Shown here: piece after piece, positions 5,298 through 31,995 of the stretch
How the letters are laid out: each line of letters starts with the position of its first letter
How positions within the stretch are numbered: position 1 is the stretch's first letter
Source of the DNA: Aliarcobacter sp.
GTDB lineage: Bacteria > Campylobacterota > Campylobacteria > Campylobacterales > Arcobacteraceae
NCBI GenBank assembly: GCA_028681275.1
Contig: JAQUIV010000010.1
Location: 1 to 32,665 of the forward strand
Reading direction: 5' to 3'
DNA length: 32,665 nt
Notes under the pieces: model-generated
Told to the model about the DNA's origin: nothing
What the model saw: only the letters and a program-made list of their open reading frames with translations
The model's database searches: none
Made by a program: the position numbers and the translations under genes

Positions 5298-6425
5298 TTA
5301 TTTCTCTAATAAATGCTCATATTTTTTATCAGTTAGAAGTTTCATAAATGCAACTAATGCCTCAATTTTCCTATCTGTTAAAGCACTTGCTTTTAACTCT
5401 TTTAGGGATATTGTCTCTTTCACTTCTGCTTCATCCCAAACTTTTTTAGTTTCAGGATTTATATTTCTATCTTTATTATTGTACTTATCATAAAACTCAA
5501 CAACTGTTTTTAAATCTTTAAATACTCCATTGTGCATATAAGGAGCTGTAACTGCCACATTTCTCAAAGTTGGAACTTTATGTTTTCCTAATTGTTTTTC
5601 ATCTTTTACATTTGGATTTGCTAATAAACCTTTATCAATCTCTTTTACACCATTTTTTGCTCTTAATTGATTATTTGCAGGTGTTCCAATATTATGATAT
5701 TCATAATTTGTAAAAGTCTCCCCTGCTTTATCTTCACCTTTTAAAACGTGACAAGAGGCGCATGAATTATTGTTATTTGAGAAGAATATTGATTTTCCTA
5801 AATCTTCAAGTGGAGTTAAATCATATTCACCTTTTAAATATCTATCGTATTTTGAATCAAATGGTGAAAATTCATCTGTTCTTTCAAAGGCTGCAATAAC
5901 TTGTGTTAAAGCACTATAAGCTTTTTCTTCATCTTCTAAAATATCATTTCCAAAAAGGTTTTTGAATGAATTTACATATAACTCATTTTCTTTGATTCTA
6001 TTAATTACCTCTTTTTTATTTGCCATTCCCATTTCTGCTGGATTTAATGGAGGTCCACCAGCTTGGTCTTCAAGAGTTGATGCTCTTCCATCCCAAAATT
6101 GTCCACCAACAAATTTTTGTTTTTTCTCATCAAAATGAAATGCTGGTGAAAACTTTGCATAAGATGCACTTGGAGCTTGTCTATCACCAATTGATTTATT
6201 ATCATCACCCAAAGATGCCATTTTAGAAACACCATTATCTCGATTATCTACAAATCCGCTGTTTGGATTGTGACAAGTTGCACAGGCTTGTGTTCTATTA
6301 TTTGATAAGTTTTTATCAAAAAACAAAATCTGCCCCAACTCCTCTTTTGATAAATTACCACTTGCACTTAAACTAACACTTGAAAATGCTAAAAACATAG
6401 CTACTACTAATTTTGAACCTCTCAT
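5298..6425 (-). CDS. Di-heme cytochrome c peroxidase / MauG-like
   Basis: Signal peptide, two CxxCH motifs (CATCHNPNSGFVD; CASCHVLKG), VPTLRNVAVTAPYMHNGVFKDLKTVVEFY typical of bacterial CCP/MauG. Confidence 0.92.
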   Translation of the reverse strand: MRGSKLVVAMFLAFSSVSLSASGNLSKEELGQILFFDKNLSNNRTQACATCHNPNSGFVDNRDNGVSKMASLGDDNKSIGDRQAPSASYAKFSPAFHFDEKKQKFVGGQFWDGRASTLEDQAGGPPLNPAEMGMANKKEVINRIKENELYVNSFKNLFGNDILEDEEKAYSALTQVIAAFERTDEFSPFDSKYDRYLKGEYDLTPLEDLGKSIFFSNNNNSCASCHVLKGEDKAGETFTNYEYHNIGTPANNQLRAKNGVKEIDKGLLANPNVKDEKQLGKHKVPTLRNVAVTAPYMHNGVFKDLKTVVEFYDKYNNKDRNINPETKKVWDEAEVKETISLKELKASALTDRKIEALVAFMKLLTDKKYEHLLEK

Positions 6426-7342
6426 TAAATCCCCCTCTTTTTTAATAAATTTATAACTGGTCTAAATAATAAATCTTTTAATGAAAGATAATCTTTCATC
6501 TGCTCTTTTTTTAGACCAAACTTCATAACTTTTACACTATTTGATAAACATAAAGTTCCAAAAACTCTGTCCCAAATAGAAATATAACCACCATAATTTT
6601 TGTCAAAATGTTTTTTGCTGTGATGTATTTGATGCTGTTTTGGCGACATAAACCATTTTTCAATAAAATTCCCATAAGAAAATGGCACATGAGAATGTCT
6701 TAAATTTGAGCCAAAAACAGAAAATATAAATAAAAAAACATTAACTCCTAAAACCATATAAATATCAATCATAGAACCAAATAGATATATAAAAACTCCT
6801 GTAACAACACCAACACTCAAAGAGTATCTCAATCCAAAAAGAAAATTCTCAACTGGATGAACCCTATAAAAAGTGACTGGTGTTAAAACTTTTGCACTAT
6901 GATGAATTTTGTGAAACTCCCATAAAAATGGGATTGTATGTAAAAATCTATGTAACCAATATCTTGTAAAATCACTCACACCAAAAACTGAAATCGTATA
7001 CATCAAAATAATCATTTCATAAGAGAAAAAACTATTTTCATAATAATCAAATTGCAAAAATAAAAATTTATTTACATTAAAAGCGATAGTTTTTGCACTT
7101 ATAATAAAAGGTACTAACAATAAAATATTTATAAAATATGATAAAAAAAAGTAGTAATAATCCAACTTTGCACTAGGATGTAACCAAAGTTTTGAAGAAG
7201 TTATTACTCTGCTATTTTTTTTACTTACATAAAAATAGATTATTGCTAATAATATAGAACTCAACAAATAGACCCAAAATAGTCTTTTGTTTGGGTCTAT
7301 TAAATATTCAAGTGCAAAAAGTTCTTTCGAAATAGTGGTCAA
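6425..7342 (-). CDS. Fatty acid hydroxylase / sterol desaturase superfamily membrane protein
   Basis: Multi-TM protein with three His boxes: HRFLH, HKIHH, HQIHHSKKHFDKNYGG; overlaps the adjacent MauG-like gene by 1 bp. Confidence 0.9.
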   Translation of the reverse strand: MTTISKELFALEYLIDPNKRLFWVYLLSSILLAIIYFYVSKKNSRVITSSKLWLHPSAKLDYYYFFLSYFINILLLVPFIISAKTIAFNVNKFLFLQFDYYENSFFSYEMIILMYTISVFGVSDFTRYWLHRFLHTIPFLWEFHKIHHSAKVLTPVTFYRVHPVENFLFGLRYSLSVGVVTGVFIYLFGSMIDIYMVLGVNVFLFIFSVFGSNLRHSHVPFSYGNFIEKWFMSPKQHQIHHSKKHFDKNYGGYISIWDRVFGTLCLSNSVKVMKFGLKKEQMKDYLSLKDLLFRPVINLLKKRGI

Positions 7343-7345
7343 ATT

Positions 7346-8293
7346 CTAATCTCCATCCGCATCTAATATTTTTCCAGTTACACTTAATTGACCAATTAAA
7401 GATAAATAATATGCATTATGTAAATCTTTTACACTATTAAATAAAACTGTTGCATTTGTAAAATCATCAACAGGCAGTTTTTTTAACTCATTTTGAGCCT
7501 CTTTTATTTTATCAATAACCATTAAAAGCTCAATAGCTGCACCTTTACTTAATGCAAACGCTGCGAAATCATAATATTCATGTTTCTCAACTATTTGTTT
7601 ATGAGCGTCTAAAATTGCATCTATGGCATTGAACGAGTTTTTACTTAAAAAATATTCTGCTCTTTCGTTTTTTGGGTCATTTTTAAATTTACCAGCATTT
7701 CCACTAGCATTTCCAATTCTCCACTCTTTTAATCTATAAGAACTAGCAATTAAAGTATTTATAACCAAAGAATTTTCCCATTTTTCATCTTTTGCCGGTT
7801 TTGTTAGATATGTTTGATAAACCTCTTTTATCTCTTCTAAATAAGAAATCATTGAATCCAAAATAGCAACACTTAACTCTTTTTCTCTTTTTGAAATCTC
7901 TTTATCATTAAAAATTACATACTCCAAAGCATTTATAGTTTTAAACGAGTTCTTAAATAAAGCAGTTTTAACCTCATCTTTTGATTCAACAACTCTTTTC
8001 ATCTGAGAAGGTAAATCCTCTTTTAAATTGTTGTAAACATCCATATATCTTGGAGTATCAGCATAATTCTCGTCTAAATCTCCAGCAATATAAAAAGCTT
8101 CAACTTTTTTCCATGACTTTAAAAAATTTGTAAAGTTAACAGCATTTACATCTTTTTGTAAAATTTTTCCATTATCTATTGTTTCTTGAACATTTGGAAT
8201 TGATACATTTTTGATAATATTTACAAGTACTCTTTCATTGGCAAAAACCATACTTGAAAACAACAAAACTAAAAACAAAACTTTTTTCATCAT
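7346..8293 (-). CDS. Imelysin family protein (second paralogue)
   Basis: Signal peptide; FLKSWKKVEAFYIAG..., FKTINALEYVIFN, SYRLKEWRIGNASGNAGKFKNDPKNERAEYFLSKNSFNAIDAIL match imelysin architecture. Confidence 0.8.
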   Translation of the reverse strand: MMKKVLFLVLLFSSMVFANERVLVNIIKNVSIPNVQETIDNGKILQKDVNAVNFTNFLKSWKKVEAFYIAGDLDENYADTPRYMDVYNNLKEDLPSQMKRVVESKDEVKTALFKNSFKTINALEYVIFNDKEISKREKELSVAILDSMISYLEEIKEVYQTYLTKPAKDEKWENSLVINTLIASSYRLKEWRIGNASGNAGKFKNDPKNERAEYFLSKNSFNAIDAILDAHKQIVEKHEYYDFAAFALSKGAAIELLMVIDKIKEAQNELKKLPVDDFTNATVLFNSVKDLHNAYYLSLIGQLSVTGKILDADGD

Positions 8294-9687
8294 AACTCCT
8301 CTAAAAATTTAAGTAATTTTTCTCTTTTTTCTTTTGGTAAATTCATATAATTCTCTTTTGCTTTTAAGGCTTCACCACCATGCCACAAAATAGCCTCTTG
8401 AAAACTTCTAGCTCTTCCATCATGTAGAAGTCTAGGTTTCTCTTTATTTATTTTCTCATGAAGAGCAAGTCCCCATAAAGGTGCAGTTCTCCACTCATTT
8501 CCATTTGCTTTAAATTCAACTCTTCCATCACTTAACTCTTCACCCATATCATGTAACAAAAAATCAGAATAAGGGAAAACTTTAAAACCTTTTTTTGTAT
8601 CAAAACTACTAATATGACACTTTGAACATGAAATTTGCTCAAATATTTCTAAACCCTCTTTATACTCTTTTGTGATTTTAGGAGTATACGTTTTTATATT
8701 TTTTAAATAATAAGTAACCACATCAAGTCTTTCATCTGGTAAATCAATAGCATCTTTTGCTTTTGGTGCGTCATTACATGCTTTTTGAAAAGAGGTACAA
8801 TTTTCATTTGGAAAAATCGAAGTTGTTAATCCCATATCATTTGAAGCAGCACCAGCAACTTGTTCTTTCAAAGAAGCTACACTTGCTTTCCAAGTATATT
8901 TACCTAGTTCTTCTTTTTTTGTAAGATTAGAATAAACCCAATTTGCTCGACCTGATATTCCATCTTCATTTTTATCATTTATATCTTCGTTTTTTAAAAT
9001 ATCTTCATCTGAAATTAATGTTATTAAACCCATACCATTCAGCGTGGGAGCTATTCTATACGAAACATTGCTATCTTTTTCTAATTCTCCATAATTTAGA
9101 TTTACTAAAGAGTATTTAGGCTTTAATAAAAGTTGTTTTTCACTATCAGGAAATATTACTTCAACTTCTTCAAAATCTATTTTTATATTACCTTCAAAAT
9201 CTATTCCATGAATTCCATTTATTGATAATTGATTTCCATAAACACTATTTGGAACAAAACCTTTATATTTTAAAAACTCTTGATGTTCCTTTGAATCATT
9301 TGATTTTATAGATAATCTTGCAACCAAAGATCTTGAGCTAAAACCATCTTTATTAATCAAAGTTCCTCTTCCATTTGAAGGATGACATGAAATACAGGTA
9401 TTTGCATTAAAAAGAGGTCCTAATCCATCTCTTGCGGTTGTAACACTCGGTGATTCAACCCAAGGAATAGTAAAAAAACTTCTACCTAATATAAACTTAT
9501 CATATTCCTCATCATTTAAATTATTAATTGGTTTTAAAAGTATTGAATTATTTTTATCATTTGATAAATATTTATCACTATTATCAACGGCAAAAAGCCC
9601 CGTAGCAAATATTACTACAAGGCTTTTTATTATAAAAATGTTTTTAAATAAATTATAATTTTGTTTCATCAGGATCTGTAACATCAT
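8290..9687 (-). CDS. DUF1111 di-heme oxidoreductase (putative thiol oxidoreductase, DHOR)
   Basis: Two CxxCH motifs (NTCISCHPSNGRG; ISCSKCHISSF) and RTAPLWGLALHEKINKEKPRLLHDGRARSFQEAILWHGGEA, diagnostic for the DUF1111 family. Start may be the internal ATG at 9669 (MKQNYNLF). Confidence 0.9.
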   Translation of the reverse strand: MMLQILMKQNYNLFKNIFIIKSLVVIFATGLFAVDNSDKYLSNDKNNSILLKPINNLNDEEYDKFILGRSFFTIPWVESPSVTTARDGLGPLFNANTCISCHPSNGRGTLINKDGFSSRSLVARLSIKSNDSKEHQEFLKYKGFVPNSVYGNQLSINGIHGIDFEGNIKIDFEEVEVIFPDSEKQLLLKPKYSLVNLNYGELEKDSNVSYRIAPTLNGMGLITLISDEDILKNEDINDKNEDGISGRANWVYSNLTKKEELGKYTWKASVASLKEQVAGAASNDMGLTTSIFPNENCTSFQKACNDAPKAKDAIDLPDERLDVVTYYLKNIKTYTPKITKEYKEGLEIFEQISCSKCHISSFDTKKGFKVFPYSDFLLHDMGEELSDGRVEFKANGNEWRTAPLWGLALHEKINKEKPRLLHDGRARSFQEAILWHGGEALKAKENYMNLPKEKREKLLKFLEEL

Positions 9688-11005
9688 CTGTACTTAAACT
9701 AATATTATTAGCAGTAGCAACATTTACCATCTCATCACCTAGTTTTCTCAACTCATTTTTAAGTTTTACAATAACTTTTGATTGAGAACTTTCTGGTCTA
9801 ATTTGATAATCAAAATGTTCTTTTGTTTTAGCAACATTATCTATACTATTGATTTTTTCTTCAATAGATTTCATTAAAGCCAAAATTCTTTCTTTAGTTT
9901 GTGTATCTGTTGCATCTAATAAAGAAGTTCCATATTTTTTCCCTTTATAAGTAGCAGTTAAAACATTTTTGAAACCTAAATAATTGTTTACAATATCTCT
10001 GTGCGTATTGTCAGAGAAACAAGAGTGTTCATCCTCTTCACTTGGAGTTAAAACAGCAACTGCAATTCTTTCATTTGCTAATTCAGATTTTACAAAAACT
10101 CCCATCCCTGCAATAATTTGTTTTAACGCAGCTGCTGATTCTATATTTTTAGAAGCATCTTCACCAGTTATTTGACCTTTTAATGCTGCTTGATATAAAC
10201 CTTTTGTTCCATCAACATTTTTTTCCCAAGCTGATTTTATAGCTTCTAAATCATTTACTAATTTTTCAGATGCAACTTTTAAATAAGCTAATCTTCTTGC
10301 TGCATTTTTATCAGTTGTGAAATCTTTTAAAGGTCTAAGGCCAGCTGTTTTTGCACCTTTTGTAATTCCATCTTTTAAGAAATTAGAATAATCTTGATCT
10401 TGTCCCCATAATAAAAATTCAATAGCATGGTAACCAGATGCAACATTTGCATCTCCACCATTTTCATTTAATTCTGTAATTGCATCAACTGTGATTTTAG
10501 AAACATCAACCTCTTTTGATTCTTCTCCACCTGGATTAAACTTTCCAACAGTATCTATAATATTTCCTGAAGTTTTTTTACCATTTTCATCAATTGTATA
10601 ATCAATCATATTTTCATCAAGTGGCCAAGCATTAATTTGTCCCTCTTTTGCACCATAAGCTGCATTAATCCATCCATCTTCTGAATCAACTGGACCATTT
10701 GAAAGTCTAAAAGCTTCAGTTTGACCATAAGATTCCCTTGAAACTAACCAAGCATTTTTAGCTTTGTTTAGATTTTCTAAAGTTGGTTTTTTTGAGAACT
10801 CATCAATTGCAGTTTGTAAAGCTTTTGCATCTTTTAATGTATCACTATATACATCTAATGCAATGTTAGAATAAGCTTCTAAAAGAGGATTAACTTTTGT
10901 TAATTCTTGTTTTTCACCTCCATCAACTGTTATAGCATTACTACTCAATGCAATTGCAGTAACAACAGATAGAGAAACTATTACTTTTTTACTAAAATTT
11001 AACAT
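9653..11005 (-). CDS. Imelysin family / iron-regulated protein (IrpA-like)
   Basis: 450 aa, signal peptide, GxHxxE motif in SGYHAIEFLLWGQD, AWLVSRESYGQTEAFRLSNGPVD; Fur-box-like dyads upstream. Confidence 0.9.
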   Translation of the reverse strand: MLNFSKKVIVSLSVVTAIALSSNAITVDGGEKQELTKVNPLLEAYSNIALDVYSDTLKDAKALQTAIDEFSKKPTLENLNKAKNAWLVSRESYGQTEAFRLSNGPVDSEDGWINAAYGAKEGQINAWPLDENMIDYTIDENGKKTSGNIIDTVGKFNPGGEESKEVDVSKITVDAITELNENGGDANVASGYHAIEFLLWGQDQDYSNFLKDGITKGAKTAGLRPLKDFTTDKNAARRLAYLKVASEKLVNDLEAIKSAWEKNVDGTKGLYQAALKGQITGEDASKNIESAAALKQIIAGMGVFVKSELANERIAVAVLTPSEEDEHSCFSDNTHRDIVNNYLGFKNVLTATYKGKKYGTSLLDATDTQTKERILALMKSIEEKINSIDNVAKTKEHFDYQIRPESSQSKVIVKLKNELRKLGDEMVNVATANNISLSTDDVTDPDETKL

Positions 11006-11080
11006 TTAATTCCTTTTTTAATTTTAATATTAATTATCATTAATGAATTAAAGCGAAAAAAAACTTTTATTTTTCTTAAA

Positions 11081-11099
11081 TTGATAATAATTATCACAA
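11081..11099. promoter_or_regulatory. Putative Fur box upstream of the imelysin/DHOR operon
   Basis: ttgataataattatcacaa contains the perfect dyad tgataat-a-attatca (11082-11096), close to the Fur consensus. A weaker related site, taattatcattaat, lies at 11031-11044. Confidence 0.75.
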
Positions 11100-27184: not shown

Positions 27185-27289
27185 TTTTTTTAACTAGGTT
27201 TATTCCTAGTTATAATATTTATCTTAATTCCCTTTCATCTTCCCTATTTTTAAAATACCTATAAATACACTTTCAACTATTAAAACTTT

Positions 27290-27359
27290 TTGATAATCAT
27301 TCTTAATATTAATTAATATTTAAGAATTCACTAGCTATTATTTCAATAATGATTATCAA
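27290..27359 (+). promoter_or_regulatory. Paired inverted Fur-box-like sites with nested palindrome
   Basis: ttgataatcatt (27290-27301) and its exact reverse complement aatgattatcaa (27348-27359), enclosing near-palindrome attcttaatattaattaatatttaagaat (27299-27327). Confidence 0.65.
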
Positions 27360-27374
27360 TATAAAGGATTTAAA

Positions 27375-27440
27375 ATGATTAATTGTAAAGAATTAAAAAA
27401 TAAAAATGACTTAGTAAAACCAACTGGTTGTACTTGTTAA
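27375..27440 (+). CDS. Small ORF, 21 aa (MINCKELKNKNDLVKPTGCTC)
   Basis: ATG with aaaggatttaaa leader nearly identical to the leader of the next gene (aaagggtttaaa at 27457); sits between the Fur-like sites and the DUF2325 gene. Confidence 0.5.
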   Translation: MINCKELKNKNDLVKPTGCTC

Positions 27441-27456
27441 AATAAAAGGGTTTAAA

Positions 27457-27792
27457 ATGAGCGTATTAATAATTGGTGGAGATCAGATTTCTCAAATTTC
27501 ATCTATGTTAGAAAGTTTAGGTGCTAAAACAATAAATCATTGGGATGCAAGAAAAAAATCTTCAGCTCCAAAGAAAAAAGTTCCACAAGATACAGATTGT
27601 ATTGTTATGATAACCTCATTTTTAAATCATAATACAATGCTTAAATATAAAAATGAAGCAAAAAAGAAAAATATTCCATTTATTTGTTCAAAAAGATCAA
27701 TATCTTGTGTATATGATGAATATGTAAAAATTATGGGAATAAAAGATTGTAATAACTGTTATGCAAATTGTGAGGGGAGTTCAAAATGTTAA
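27457..27792 (+). CDS. DUF2325 domain protein
   Basis: MSVLIIGGDQISQISSMLESLGAKTINHWDARK...DTDCIVMITSFLNHNTMLKYKNEAKKKNIPFICSKRSI; C-terminal Cys cluster DCNNCYANCEGSSKC. Confidence 0.8.
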   Translation: MSVLIIGGDQISQISSMLESLGAKTINHWDARKKSSAPKKKVPQDTDCIVMITSFLNHNTMLKYKNEAKKKNIPFICSKRSISCVYDEYVKIMGIKDCNNCYANCEGSSKC

Positions 27793-28544
27793 ATAATAAC
27801 TTAATAGGATTTTATGAAAATCAAGAATATTTACCAAAAGATTTTGATGAATTTAATTCTGTGATTAAACTAAGACAACTATTTCTAAATTTGAGTAATA
27901 ATATTTTTGGATGTTCATGTCAATTTACAAAATATGAACAAAATAGATTAGCAAAACATCCACTAAAAGATGCTTTTACTTATAAAATAGATAGATTGAT
28001 GCCTTTTAGTTTCATAAAAGTATGGAAGAAACAAAATAAAAATAATTTTAAATTATGTATAAATTCAACGAAAATAATCAATAATTATTTAAATAGTGAT
28101 TCAAATAAATCTGTTCTAATTTCAAATAAAAATTTACTTCCTGTTGCAAAACTAATTTCACATTGTTTTATAAATAACAAAATGCAACTACTTATTGATA
28201 AACATTTGTTATTCCACGAATTTGTTCTAAAAAAAATAAAAAAACTTCATAGTGACAAAACAGTTATTGATTTAGGTGATTCGATATGTATAAAATCTGA
28301 AAATTTTGTAGGACTTAAAATTTATACTTCATGGAAAGATATTGAGGTTAAAAAACCAAATATCAAAGATGAACTAGAAGATGCAATTAAATCTATTAAA
28401 AAAGGTGAATATTATCAAATATATTTAGCATATCCCAAAAATAATGAATTTACAAAACAAATTCCTGTTTTTGTAGATGAGTTAAAAAATAAAGAGTATC
28501 AAATTAAAGCAATTCCTTACTCTTTAAGATCAACAATAAAATAA
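27786..28544 (+). CDS. Uncharacterised 252-aa protein, translationally coupled to DUF2325
   Basis: ORF overlaps the DUF2325 stop by 7 bp; no family recognised; contains FGCSC near the N-terminus. Confidence 0.75.
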   Translation: MLNNNLIGFYENQEYLPKDFDEFNSVIKLRQLFLNLSNNIFGCSCQFTKYEQNRLAKHPLKDAFTYKIDRLMPFSFIKVWKKQNKNNFKLCINSTKIINNYLNSDSNKSVLISNKNLLPVAKLISHCFINNKMQLLIDKHLLFHEFVLKKIKKLHSDKTVIDLGDSICIKSENFVGLKIYTSWKDIEVKKPNIKDELEDAIKSIKKGEYYQIYLAYPKNNEFTKQIPVFVDELKNKEYQIKAIPYSLRSTIK

Positions 28545-28564
28545 TAATTAGGAGAAGATTCAAA

Positions 28565-29062
28565 ATGGCAACGGCAATATTTTTTGCAAGTAGTACAGGA
28601 AATTCAGAAGAAATAGCAAATAAAATTTCAGCAGAATTAAATAATATAGAAATATTTGATTTAGCAGGTACAAAAATAGAAAAAATAAATGAATTTGATA
28701 AATTAATTCTTGGTGGTTCAACTTGGGGTGATGGAGAGTTAAATGATGATTGGGAAGATGTTTGGGGGAATTTTTGTAACTTAGATTTATCAAATAAAAC
28801 TATTGCATTATTTGGATTAGGGGATCAAGAGAGTTATAGTGATGAATTTTGTAGTGCAATGGGAATAATTTATGAACAAATAGTTAAAAGTGGAGCAAAA
28901 ATAGTTGGTTTTACTTCAACTGAAGGTTATTACCATGATGGTTCAAAAGCTCAGATAAATGATAAATTTGTTGGATTAGTAATTGATGAAGATAATCAAA
29001 GTGATTTAACAGATGAAAGAATCAAAATTTGGGTAAATGAAATAAAAGAATCTATTTTATAA
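28565..29062 (+). CDS. fldA: Flavodoxin
   Basis: FASSTGNSEEIANKI (FMN phosphate loop), GGSTWGDGELNDDWEDVW, LFGLGDQESYSDEFCSAMG, GFTSTEGYYHDGSKA. Confidence 0.95.
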   Translation: MATAIFFASSTGNSEEIANKISAELNNIEIFDLAGTKIEKINEFDKLILGGSTWGDGELNDDWEDVWGNFCNLDLSNKTIALFGLGDQESYSDEFCSAMGIIYEQIVKSGAKIVGFTSTEGYYHDGSKAQINDKFVGLVIDEDNQSDLTDERIKIWVNEIKESIL

Positions 29063-29094
29063 GTATAATAAGTAAATTAAGATTTTATCTTAAT

Positions 29095-29544
29095 TTACTC
29101 CTGACAAGTCTCACAAGTTCCATATAATTGCATTGAATGACTAACAATTTTAAATTTATTTTTTTTGGCAATTTTATCTTGTCTTTTTTCTATTTCATCA
29201 TCCATAAACTCTATAATTTTCCCACAATTTGTGCAAATTAAATGGTCATGGTGCGATTTAGAATTACTTTCATATTTTTTTCCATCTGTACCAAAAGTAA
29301 TAGAAGTTATTAAATCTACTTCTTCTAAAAAGCTAAGTGCTCTATAAACTGTTGCAATTCCTATATTTGAATTAGCATACTTTTTTTTAATCTCATTATA
29401 TACTTCTTCTGCAGTTAAATGTTCTTTTGCGTGTAATAAAATACTAAGAACTATTTCTCTTTGTTCTGTGTATTTTAATCCCTTTTGTTTAACGATTTTT
29501 TTTAATTCATCAATTATTTCTTCATTACTATTTTCACTTAACAT
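29095..29544 (-). CDS. fur: Ferric uptake regulator family protein
   Basis: KYTEQREIVLSILLHAKEHLTAEEVYNEI, GIATVYRALSFLEEVDLI, SKSHHDHLICTNCGKIIEF, LYGTCETC. Confidence 0.93.
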   Translation of the reverse strand: MLSENSNEEIIDELKKIVKQKGLKYTEQREIVLSILLHAKEHLTAEEVYNEIKKKYANSNIGIATVYRALSFLEEVDLITSITFGTDGKKYESNSKSHHDHLICTNCGKIIEFMDDEIEKRQDKIAKKNKFKIVSHSMQLYGTCETCQE

Positions 29545-29636: not shown

Positions 29637-29651
29637 TAATAATCATTATTA
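29637..29651. promoter_or_regulatory. Putative Fur box upstream of feoAB
   Basis: Perfect 7-1-7 dyad taataat-c-attatta about 19 bp before feoA. Confidence 0.7.
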
Positions 29652-29669: not shown

Positions 29670-29897
29670 ATGACTTTAGATCAATTAAAAATCAATGAAA
29701 GTGCTATTATTACGGCTATAAACTGTGATGAAATTTTAAAGGATAGATTGTATTCTTTTGGAATTAGTAAAGGTGTGAAAGTAGAAATAGTAGAATTAAC
29801 ATTAACAAAAAGTACAATAGAAATAAAAATAAATCAATCTAAAATGGCTCTAAGATTAGCTGAAGCTTCTAAGATAGAAGTTGCTTATGAAAAATAA
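29670..29897 (+). CDS. feoA: Ferrous iron transport protein A
   Basis: 75-aa SH3-like FeoA: MTLDQLKINESAIITAINCDEILKDRLYSFGISKGVKVEIVE; upstream of and overlapping feoB. Confidence 0.93.
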   Translation: MTLDQLKINESAIITAINCDEILKDRLYSFGISKGVKVEIVELTLTKSTIEIKINQSKMALRLAEASKIEVAYEK

Positions 29898-31995
29898 TAT
29901 AATTAGAATTGCTCTTGTAGGACAACCAAATGTTGGTAAGTCAATGCTTATCAATTCTATCTCAAATGCAAGACTAAAAGTAGGAAATTTTTCAGGTGTA
30001 ACTGTTACTAAAGAACAAGTTTTTTTAGATTATAAAAACTTCCATATTCAAATAACAGATTTACCTGGTGCATATTCATTAAATGATTATACTATTGAAG
30101 AAAAAGTTACAAAAGATTTTTTAGATAGCAATGAATATGATATTATTTTAAACGTTCTTGATTCAACAAATCTTCAAAGAAATCTTCTTTTAACTGCACA
30201 ACTTTTAACTTTAGACAAAAAAATGATAATTGCTTTAAATATGATTGATGAAGCTCAAAAAGAATCAATTATAATCGATGAAGTTCAATTAAGTAAAATT
30301 CTTGGTAAACCTTGTATAAAAACAAGTGCTGCAAAAAAAATTGGTGTTACAAAATTATTAGATGAAATTATTTTTAAATTCCAAAGTGAAAAAGTTCCAA
30401 ATAAAAGATATTTTTCAAATGTGATAGAAGAAGAGATAGAAAACATCTCAAATGTATTAAAAGAAAATAACTATGAAACAGACTTAACATATAGACATAT
30501 CGCATTAAATTTGTTAAAAGAAGATAAAACTATTTATAAGATATTCCATGATGAACCTATTTGGATAAAAATTCAACCTGTTTTAAATGAAGCGTTTGAA
30601 CACTTATTTATTCATTTTGGAACAAAAAATATTAAAGATATTTTTAATGAAGAACGCTTTGCATTTGCAAAAGGTGCTGTTACAGAAACTGTAAAAGAAA
30701 AGAAATCTACTAAAAAAACATTAACAGAAAAATTTGATTCTGTTTTAATTCATAAATTTTTTGGTTTGCCAATCTTTTTATTTCTAATGTGGGGATTATT
30801 TCAATTAACTTTTGAAATTGGTAATATTCCAATGGATATGATTGATTCATTTTTTGCAACTATTATTGATAAAACAAAAGAGATTATGGGAAATAATCAA
30901 CTTTCATCAATTATTGCTGATGGAGCAATTGCAGGAGTTGGTTCTGTGGTTTTATTTGTTCCAAATATTGTTATACTTTTTTTTGGTATAGCATTATTAG
31001 AAACAACTGGCTATATGAGTAGAGTTGCATTTTTATTGGATGGATTTTTCCATAAATTTGGACTTCATGGAAAATCATTTATACCTTTAGTTACAGGTTT
31101 TGGTTGCTCTGTTCCAGCGTATATGGCAGCAAGAACACTAAAAAATGAAAGAGATAGATTATTAACTTTATTTATTATCGGATTTATGTCTTGTGGTGCT
31201 AGATTACCTATATATGTGCTTTTTATAGGAGCTTTTTTTTCAGGACATAATGCTGGAAACATTTTATTTATCATATATATTAGTGGTGCAATTTTTGGTC
31301 TATTTGCAGCAAAATTTTTAAAAATGGTAGTTTTTAAAAGTGATGATGAACCATTTGTTATGGAGATGCCAAAATATAGACTACCTTCATTTAGATTAAT
31401 ATGGCATACAGTGTCAAATCAAGCAATAATGTATCTAAAAAAAGCTGGTACTTATATTTTAGCAGCTTCATTATTAATTTGGTTTGCAAGTAATTATCCA
31501 AAACATTTAGAGATTGAAGAGTCTTACAATAAAAAAATTGAACTGGTAGAAAATGATGAAGAAAAAATCATACTTCAAAATGAATTAGCACAATATAATC
31601 TTGAACACTCTTATTTAGGTTATGTTGGTAAATATTCTGAACCATTTTTTCAACCATTAGGATTTGATTGGAAAATGACTATTGCCTTAGAAACAGGATT
31701 AGCAGCAAAAGAGATAGTAGTTTCAACACTATCAATATTATATGGCTTAGGAGCTGATAATAATGAGAGTTCAAATAGCTTGATTGAAAAAATAAAAATA
31801 AATATTCCATTTGCATCTGCAATATCATTTATAGTTTTTGTAATGATTTATTTGCCTTGTTTAGCTGCATCTATGGTTTTTGTAAGAGAAGCTGGAAATT
31901 GGAAATATTTAGGATATTTATTCATTTTTACAACAACAAGTGCATGGATTTTGTCTTTTTTTGTTTATAATATAACTAAATTGTTAGTTGTATAA
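29887..31995 (+). CDS. feoB: Ferrous iron transport protein B
   Basis: G-domain ALVGQPNVGKSMLINSISN, DLPGAYSLNDYT; Gate motifs TGFGCSVPAYMAARTL, FIGFMSCGARLPIYVL; ATG at 29887 preferred over the TTG at 29881. Confidence 0.97.
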   Translation: MKNNIIRIALVGQPNVGKSMLINSISNARLKVGNFSGVTVTKEQVFLDYKNFHIQITDLPGAYSLNDYTIEEKVTKDFLDSNEYDIILNVLDSTNLQRNLLLTAQLLTLDKKMIIALNMIDEAQKESIIIDEVQLSKILGKPCIKTSAAKKIGVTKLLDEIIFKFQSEKVPNKRYFSNVIEEEIENISNVLKENNYETDLTYRHIALNLLKEDKTIYKIFHDEPIWIKIQPVLNEAFEHLFIHFGTKNIKDIFNEERFAFAKGAVTETVKEKKSTKKTLTEKFDSVLIHKFFGLPIFLFLMWGLFQLTFEIGNIPMDMIDSFFATIIDKTKEIMGNNQLSSIIADGAIAGVGSVVLFVPNIVILFFGIALLETTGYMSRVAFLLDGFFHKFGLHGKSFIPLVTGFGCSVPAYMAARTLKNERDRLLTLFIIGFMSCGARLPIYVLFIGAFFSGHNAGNILFIIYISGAIFGLFAAKFLKMVVFKSDDEPFVMEMPKYRLPSFRLIWHTVSNQAIMYLKKAGTYILAASLLIWFASNYPKHLEIEESYNKKIELVENDEEKIILQNELAQYNLEHSYLGYVGKYSEPFFQPLGFDWKMTIALETGLAAKEIVVSTLSILYGLGADNNESSNSLIEKIKINIPFASAISFIVFVMIYLPCLAASMVFVREAGNWKYLGYLFIFTTTSAWILSFFVYNITKLLVV

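Follow-up and report, generated by a model that had tools for sequence, protein, structure and literature searches.

Of the genes of unknown function in Campylobacter jejuni, a major foodborne pathogen, cj1383c and cj1384c show some of the strongest iron- and stress-related induction. An iron-dependent Fur repression motif has been listed for cj1384c, and expression of both genes rises when fur is mutated or iron is limiting (PMC4491227, PMC3815106). Under violet-blue light cj1384c, which lies beside katA, is induced 352-fold, and only the highest light dose brought out a defect in its mutant; the product has 7 Cys in 104 residues, its purification failed, and the authors raised the quenching of reactive oxygen species (ROS) by these Cys residues (PMC9426514). 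Cj1383c differs ~180-fold between mucus types (PMC6338021), and the portions of the C. jejuni literature consulted give neither a function nor a fold for Cj1383. A second point of reference is McrC of the McrBC type IV restriction system, whose catalytic residues in E. coli are Asp244, Asp257, and Lys259 (PMC6624300).

Here we describe an operon in a stretch of 32,665 nucleotides (the window) from an Aliarcobacter-type draft genome that is 76.7% complete and carries two further flavodoxin-domain genes outside the operon. An earlier note on this DNA had proposed an undescribed iron-starvation system of four co-directional, tightly packed ORFs neighbouring fur and feoAB, and this layout was confirmed, with all four ORFs on the + strand and the neighbours matched by protein profiles (Table 1). 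The 21-aa ORF is preceded by a Shine-Dalgarno-like AAAGGA and its stop lies 16 nt ahead of the DUF2325 gene, whose own stop is overlapped by the start codon of the gene for the 252-aa protein, here called P252 (ATGTTAA). A terminator-like stem at 27191-27212 parts the operon from an upstream lytic-transglycosylase-like gene. At the other end, the dyad between fldA and fur drew no flag from a terminator scan that requires G-C pairs. For the Fur-family neighbour the closest NCBIfam model is the Fur equivalog, at 157 bits, under its cut-off of 200.

Table 1. Features of the flavodoxin operon and its neighbourhood (positions in the window)
Feature	Position	Strand	Basis or remark
Distal Fur-box-like dyad, TGATAATCATTCTTA	27291-27305	.	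12/14 match to TGATAATNATTATCA; position conserved in 29 homologous loci
Proximal Fur-box-like dyad, CAATAATGATTATCA	27344-27358	.	12/14 match to TGATAATNATTATCA
Micropeptide ORF, MINCKELKNKNDLVKPTGCTC	27375-27440	+	21 aa; C-terminus conserved in 30 loci, synonymous codon variation
DUF2325	27457-27792	+	111 aa; PF10087 E=2e-17, 63.6 bits vs gathering cut-off 33.6
P252	27786-28544	+	252 aa; predicted McrC-like, nuclease-dead PD-(D/E)XK fold (AF2, Foldseek, hhalign)
Long-chain flavodoxin (fldA)	28565-29062	+	165 aa; TIGR01752 205 bits, above cut-off 147; pI 4.1
13-bp perfect dyad, AGTAAATTAAGAT-TTT-ATCTTAATTTACT	29071-29099		separates the convergent genes fldA and fur; reads as terminator-like
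Fur-family regulator	29095-29544	-	PF01475 6.9e-44; convergent neighbour of fldA
Fur-like dyad ahead of feoA-feoB	29637-29651		pattern scan
feoA	29670-29897	+	feoA-feoB pair matched by PF04023, PF02421, PF07664
feoB	29881-31995	+	feoA-feoB pair matched by PF04023, PF02421, PF07664

The Fur-box-like dyads that had been noted ahead of the operon are borne out by comparison: tandem dyads precede it in 29 homologous Arcobacteraceae-type loci from several genera, kept in position and with a spacing of 52-53 bp in nearly all of them (47 in one reading). The best Fur-like site of each of the 29 loci matches at 12-13 of 14 positions, and shuffling gave this best site a p of 0-0.055, depending on the locus; in the AT-rich window taken as a whole, TGATAATNATTATCA-like patterns are no commoner than chance. 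Together with the fur-feoAB neighbours and the iron-repressed syntenic genes of C. jejuni, the conserved sites support the proposed iron-starvation operon, and from both sequence conservation and analogy we regard iron and Fur control as very probable. Because the dyads are conserved and Fur and iron repression of cj1384c/cj1383c has already been reported (PMC3815106, PMC4491227), this control is well supported and the system as a whole does not deserve the name undescribed. What is new here, as far as could be found in the literature, is the micropeptide family and the McrC-like, dead-nuclease nature of the P252 family.

The window contains a second candidate of this kind on its - strand, a cluster at 5298-11096 of imelysin, di-haem oxidoreductase, imelysin, fatty-acid-hydroxylase-like, and di-haem peroxidase genes. 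A perfect TGATAATAATTATCA dyad lies just upstream at 11082-11096, and by its sequence this is probably a second Fur-controlled iron operon.

Searches of Pfam, NCBIfam, and PDB sequences with P252 gave no match at a meaningful level, PADLOC gave none, and the Pfam family PF15542 (Ntox50) matches some members of the P252 family weakly. Structure prediction, with one AF2 model per protein, yielded a model of pLDDT 90.4 and pTM 0.86 with an alpha-beta-beta-beta-alpha-beta core, for which the sole PDB match at E<=0.001 in a Foldseek search was McrC (6ut7_G, E=1.4e-5, prob 1.00), the next being 6ut6_G at 9.9e-3; a viral structure library held no match at E<=0.001. Profile comparison by hhalign of the deep P252 family with Arcobacteraceae McrC gave a probability of 90.0 (P=1.7e-6, 131 columns), against 0.1-0.5 for reversed and 12 column-shuffled controls; the deep family alignment is needed, shallow alignments of close relatives (A1 vs A4) giving 0.3%. 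The PF10117 gathering score is not reached: only 2 of 62 P252 members touch this family, the better at E=0.008, and the window genome has no PF10117 match.

In the hhalign pairing, McrC IDTKWK stands opposite P252 IYTSWK. The catalytic D-x-K is invariant in 15 of 15 true McrC proteins and the pair is absent from all 62 P252 relatives, the equivalent of D257 being an acid in 0/62 and that of K259 a Lys in 2/62, while the invariant residues F143, P217, F222, K241, P244, and Y245 are retained. Among window ORFs of at least 100 aa, no AAA+ protein that might be a McrB partner is recognisable by reading; the usual neighbours of P252 are fldA and DUF2325. Judged from sequence and model, P252 is highly likely to derive from McrC and to be catalytically dead. 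Metal binding by P252, which the earlier note had suggested from a GCSC motif, lacks support because its Cys residues, GCSC included, are not conserved among relatives and its predicted fold is that of a nuclease-dead McrC-like protein. The counter-evidence foreseen in that note, that the 252-aa protein would fall into a well-characterised family unrelated to metals, has thereby come about in part, and for that protein only. Four papers were found to name both McrC and flavodoxin, and judged by title and abstract none of them concerns such a link.

Of the 397 Campylobacterota genomes sampled, 150 were matched by a profile built from the 62 P252 relatives, family f10 contributing many of these; plasmids had no P252. 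Coupling to flavodoxin is nearly fixed, a flavodoxin gene lying at most 150 nt downstream on the same strand in 67 of 71 loci, and DUF2325 lies upstream of P252 in 47 of the 71. As the synteny comparison suggested by the earlier note reveals, the order DUF2325-P252-flavodoxin recurs across Campylobacterota, including Campylobacter-type loci; three of these (L042, L054, L055) contain fldA, P252, and DUF2325, followed by divergent katA and an ankyrin-repeat gene, both recognised by reading; this agrees with the published arrangement of cj1382c-cj1386.

Several variants of the arrangement were observed. In one of the four exceptions (L065, 5650-8400, genome G021), P252 follows feoA-feoB behind a Fur-like dyad instead of preceding flavodoxin. 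In genera g33 and g3 (L045, L056, L078-L080) P252 is reduced to its C-terminal nuclease-fold domain of 129-149 aa, still adjoining flavodoxin, and genus g6 (L026, L028, L029, L030) has three tandem flavodoxin genes after P252. Between DUF2325 and P252, g9 and g60 (L032, L033, L034, L039, L061, L066, L138) encode a conserved 64-66-aa protein (..NYKYE..IVNLK..DEFL..), joined at some loci by one of 58 aa, neither of which belongs to a Pfam family; at the same place L043 (5750-6720) has a ferritin-like protein and L044 (3430-4870) two ankyrin-repeat proteins, these families being assigned by reading only.

P252 and its neighbour carry opposite charges, the median net charge being +13.6 for P252 and -18.9 for fldA. 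Median values of +5.5 for true McrC and +6.4 for DUF2325 serve as comparison, positive net charge being common in AT-rich genomes. The charge of P252, a property read from sequence, would suit the binding of nucleic acid and of flavodoxin equally; that P252 docks on flavodoxin is a tentative proposal, and that it docks on nucleic acid is an equally tentative one.

The 21-aa peptide ends in a conserved LVKPTGCTC-stop (with I for V, E for K, and S for T as variants) preceded by differing N-termini. This C-terminal pattern was found in 20 of 399 genomes, exactly once in each, and a reversed control pattern in none of the 399, which puts the peptide well outside what chance would give. Seventeen of the 20 matches lie just upstream of DUF2325 in an operon like that of the window; two (G244, G120; L096, L097) form a dyads-peptide-DUF2325 unit adjoining fur that is free of P252, and in the last (L057) the peptide gene comes at the end, after DUF2325, a CxxC protein, and the C-terminal domain of P252. 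That CxxC protein (L057, 4716-4934) has 72 aa and two CxxC motifs and matches no Pfam family above cut-off. A looser GGNTGYACNTGY pattern produced mostly chance matches outside the operon, yet it revealed true variants in g60. In L138 a variant peptide ending QDGCTC is encoded between DUF2325 and the 64-aa protein; in L069 such a variant precedes P252, and the stretch inspected there has no DUF2325. In three genomes of the same genus (G027, G279, G285) the operon is kept and the peptide is absent. By L069 and these three genomes, the peptide does not always go together with DUF2325.

Over the last nine codons, 1.09, 0.08, and 3.2 changes per pair occur at codon positions 1, 2, and 3, a pattern that strongly supports selection on the amino acids of the peptide. 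The peptide occurs in three families at differing places in the operon (before DUF2325, after DUF2325, or last) and is therefore not a fixed leader. Searches of Pfam, NCBIfam, PDB sequences, and PADLOC returned nothing useful for it. These sequence patterns make it likely that the ORF encodes a genuine micropeptide, a small protein acting in trans. Gene order points to DUF2325 as its probable partner, and that the two form a thiol or metal pair is conceivable, somewhat short of an even chance.

Across the DUF2325 alignment D9, H28, W29, R32, H58, N59, and K69 are invariant and C77, K79, and R80 nearly so, which suggests a candidate binding site. The AF2 model, of moderate confidence (pLDDT 78), is Rossmann-like with a disordered C-terminal tail, and a structural search with it found no confident relative. 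The tail holds the Cys cluster, CNNCYANC in the window, with a spacing that varies among relatives. The Cys motif that the earlier note saw as shared by three products of the operon holds for the peptide, holds in part for DUF2325, and does not extend to P252.

We propose, with a probability of about 0.5, that these genes form a Fur-repressed iron-starvation operon in which flavodoxin is made together with three helpers: P252 as a binder, DUF2325, and a thiol micropeptide. Iron shortage would lift Fur repression, and flavodoxin, an iron-free electron carrier, would be made with its helpers. P252 would descend from a McrC-type nuclease and, its catalytic residues lost, serve as a basic, non-cutting binder, most likely docking on the acidic flavodoxin or holding nucleic acid. 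DUF2325, small and Rossmann-like, would bring a tail rich in Cys, and the micropeptide, ending in Gly-Cys-Thr-Cys-COOH, would most likely work with this protein in trans, supplying thiol ligands for metal or redox chemistry. That peptide, DUF2325, and domesticated McrC form one complex servicing flavodoxin, for example by handling metal or thiols or by steering electron flow, is a speculative extension that we consider unlikely.

Other readings assign the parts different roles. P252 might be a nucleic-acid-binding regulator whose dead domain binds a particular DNA or RNA and which, jointly with DUF2325, adjusts the expression of iron-using genes so as to spare iron, flavodoxin being merely co-regulated; nucleic-acid binding has been suggested as the reason why McrC relatives retain dead PD-(D/E)XK domains (PMC11090510), and P252 is strongly basic. 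The near-invariable neighbour is nonetheless flavodoxin, not a regulatory target, and g33 keeps mainly the nuclease-fold domain with flavodoxin still adjoining, so we judge this reading rather improbable. Doubtful to a greater degree is a module for peroxide or ROS defence instead of iron economy, with the Cys micropeptide and DUF2325 scavenging oxidants or shielding flavodoxin from oxidation. The light induction of cj1384c, its katA neighbour, the high-dose sensitivity of the mutant, and the Cys quenching suggested in PMC9426514 speak for it; expression in C. jejuni nevertheless tracks iron and Fur (PMC4491227, PMC3815106), the Arcobacteraceae neighbours are fur and feoAB rather than katA, and most P252 loci are without katA in the stretches inspected. 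A working restriction or toxin nuclease, a solitary McrC, would agree with the McrC-like fold of P252 and is extremely improbable given the missing D-x-K, the want of a McrB recognisable by reading among the window ORFs or of a PADLOC match, and conservation beside flavodoxin throughout the lineage.

The peptide invites two further readings. A conserved leader and a variable core are typical of RiPPs. A RiPP or metallophore precursor, its GCTC end modified and released under iron limitation, would suit the small size, the Fur-like control, and the conserved C-terminal Cys pair; the peptide has the opposite of the typical pattern, however, its N-terminus being variable and its C-terminus fixed, and no radical SAM, YcaO, DUF692, or transporter gene lies in the operon at any locus inspected, which leaves this reading with little probability. 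That the ORF is a cis-acting leader, sensing Cys supply or coupling translation, has even less. Its last three codons, Cys-Thr-Cys, directly precede the stop and its end lies close ahead of DUF2325, and against this the C-terminal codons change synonymously and freely, the region folds no better than shuffles (z = -0.67), Rfam contains no leader family matching the ORF, the peptide is last in L057 and mid-operon in L138, and one of the three peptide-less relatives, read directly, retains Fur-like half-sites and a ribosome site. On these grounds the leader or attenuator was rejected.

If the proposed complex exists, a restriction subunit has been recruited to iron economy alongside a new class of Cys-terminated micropeptide, and the conversion of a restriction-nuclease subunit into a protein that no longer cuts and instead partners an electron carrier would be an unusual case of domestication. 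For the C. jejuni genes, direct tests are opened up by a predicted fold for one of them, by the fixed coupling to flavodoxin, and by the prospect of making so short a peptide synthetically.

In comparison with known systems, McrC of type IV restriction (PF10117) and P252 share the PD-(D/E)XK fold, the helix LFxxFV, the strand LxYP, and a profile match. P252 differs in having no catalytic D-x-K, in a length that falls ~125 residues below that of the shorter local McrC proteins, and in being coupled to flavodoxin under apparent Fur-type control with no McrB partner seen. The McrC domains of CoCoNuTs resemble P252 in retaining an inactivated PD-(D/E)xK fold, probably for binding, although CoCoNuTs, unlike the P252 operon, serve in defence and combine several genes, McrB and HEPN or Hsp70 components included; the paper mentions neither Campylobacter, flavodoxin, nor DUF2325 (PMC11090510). 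As in the iron-responsive substitution of flavodoxin for ferredoxin, the flavodoxin gene of the window stands behind Fur-like sites; the operon goes further in encoding three helpers, among which the micropeptide represents a new family. The cj1384c-cj1383c-fldA (cj1382c) cluster beside katA-cj1386 has the same order of DUF2325, P252 homologue, and flavodoxin, and it is by this gene order that P252 is taken as the counterpart of Cj1383c. The C. jejuni cluster is flanked by katA and an ankyrin gene, whereas the Arcobacter locus of the window adjoins fur-feoAB, and the GCTC micropeptide of the window operon was not found at Campylobacter-type loci.
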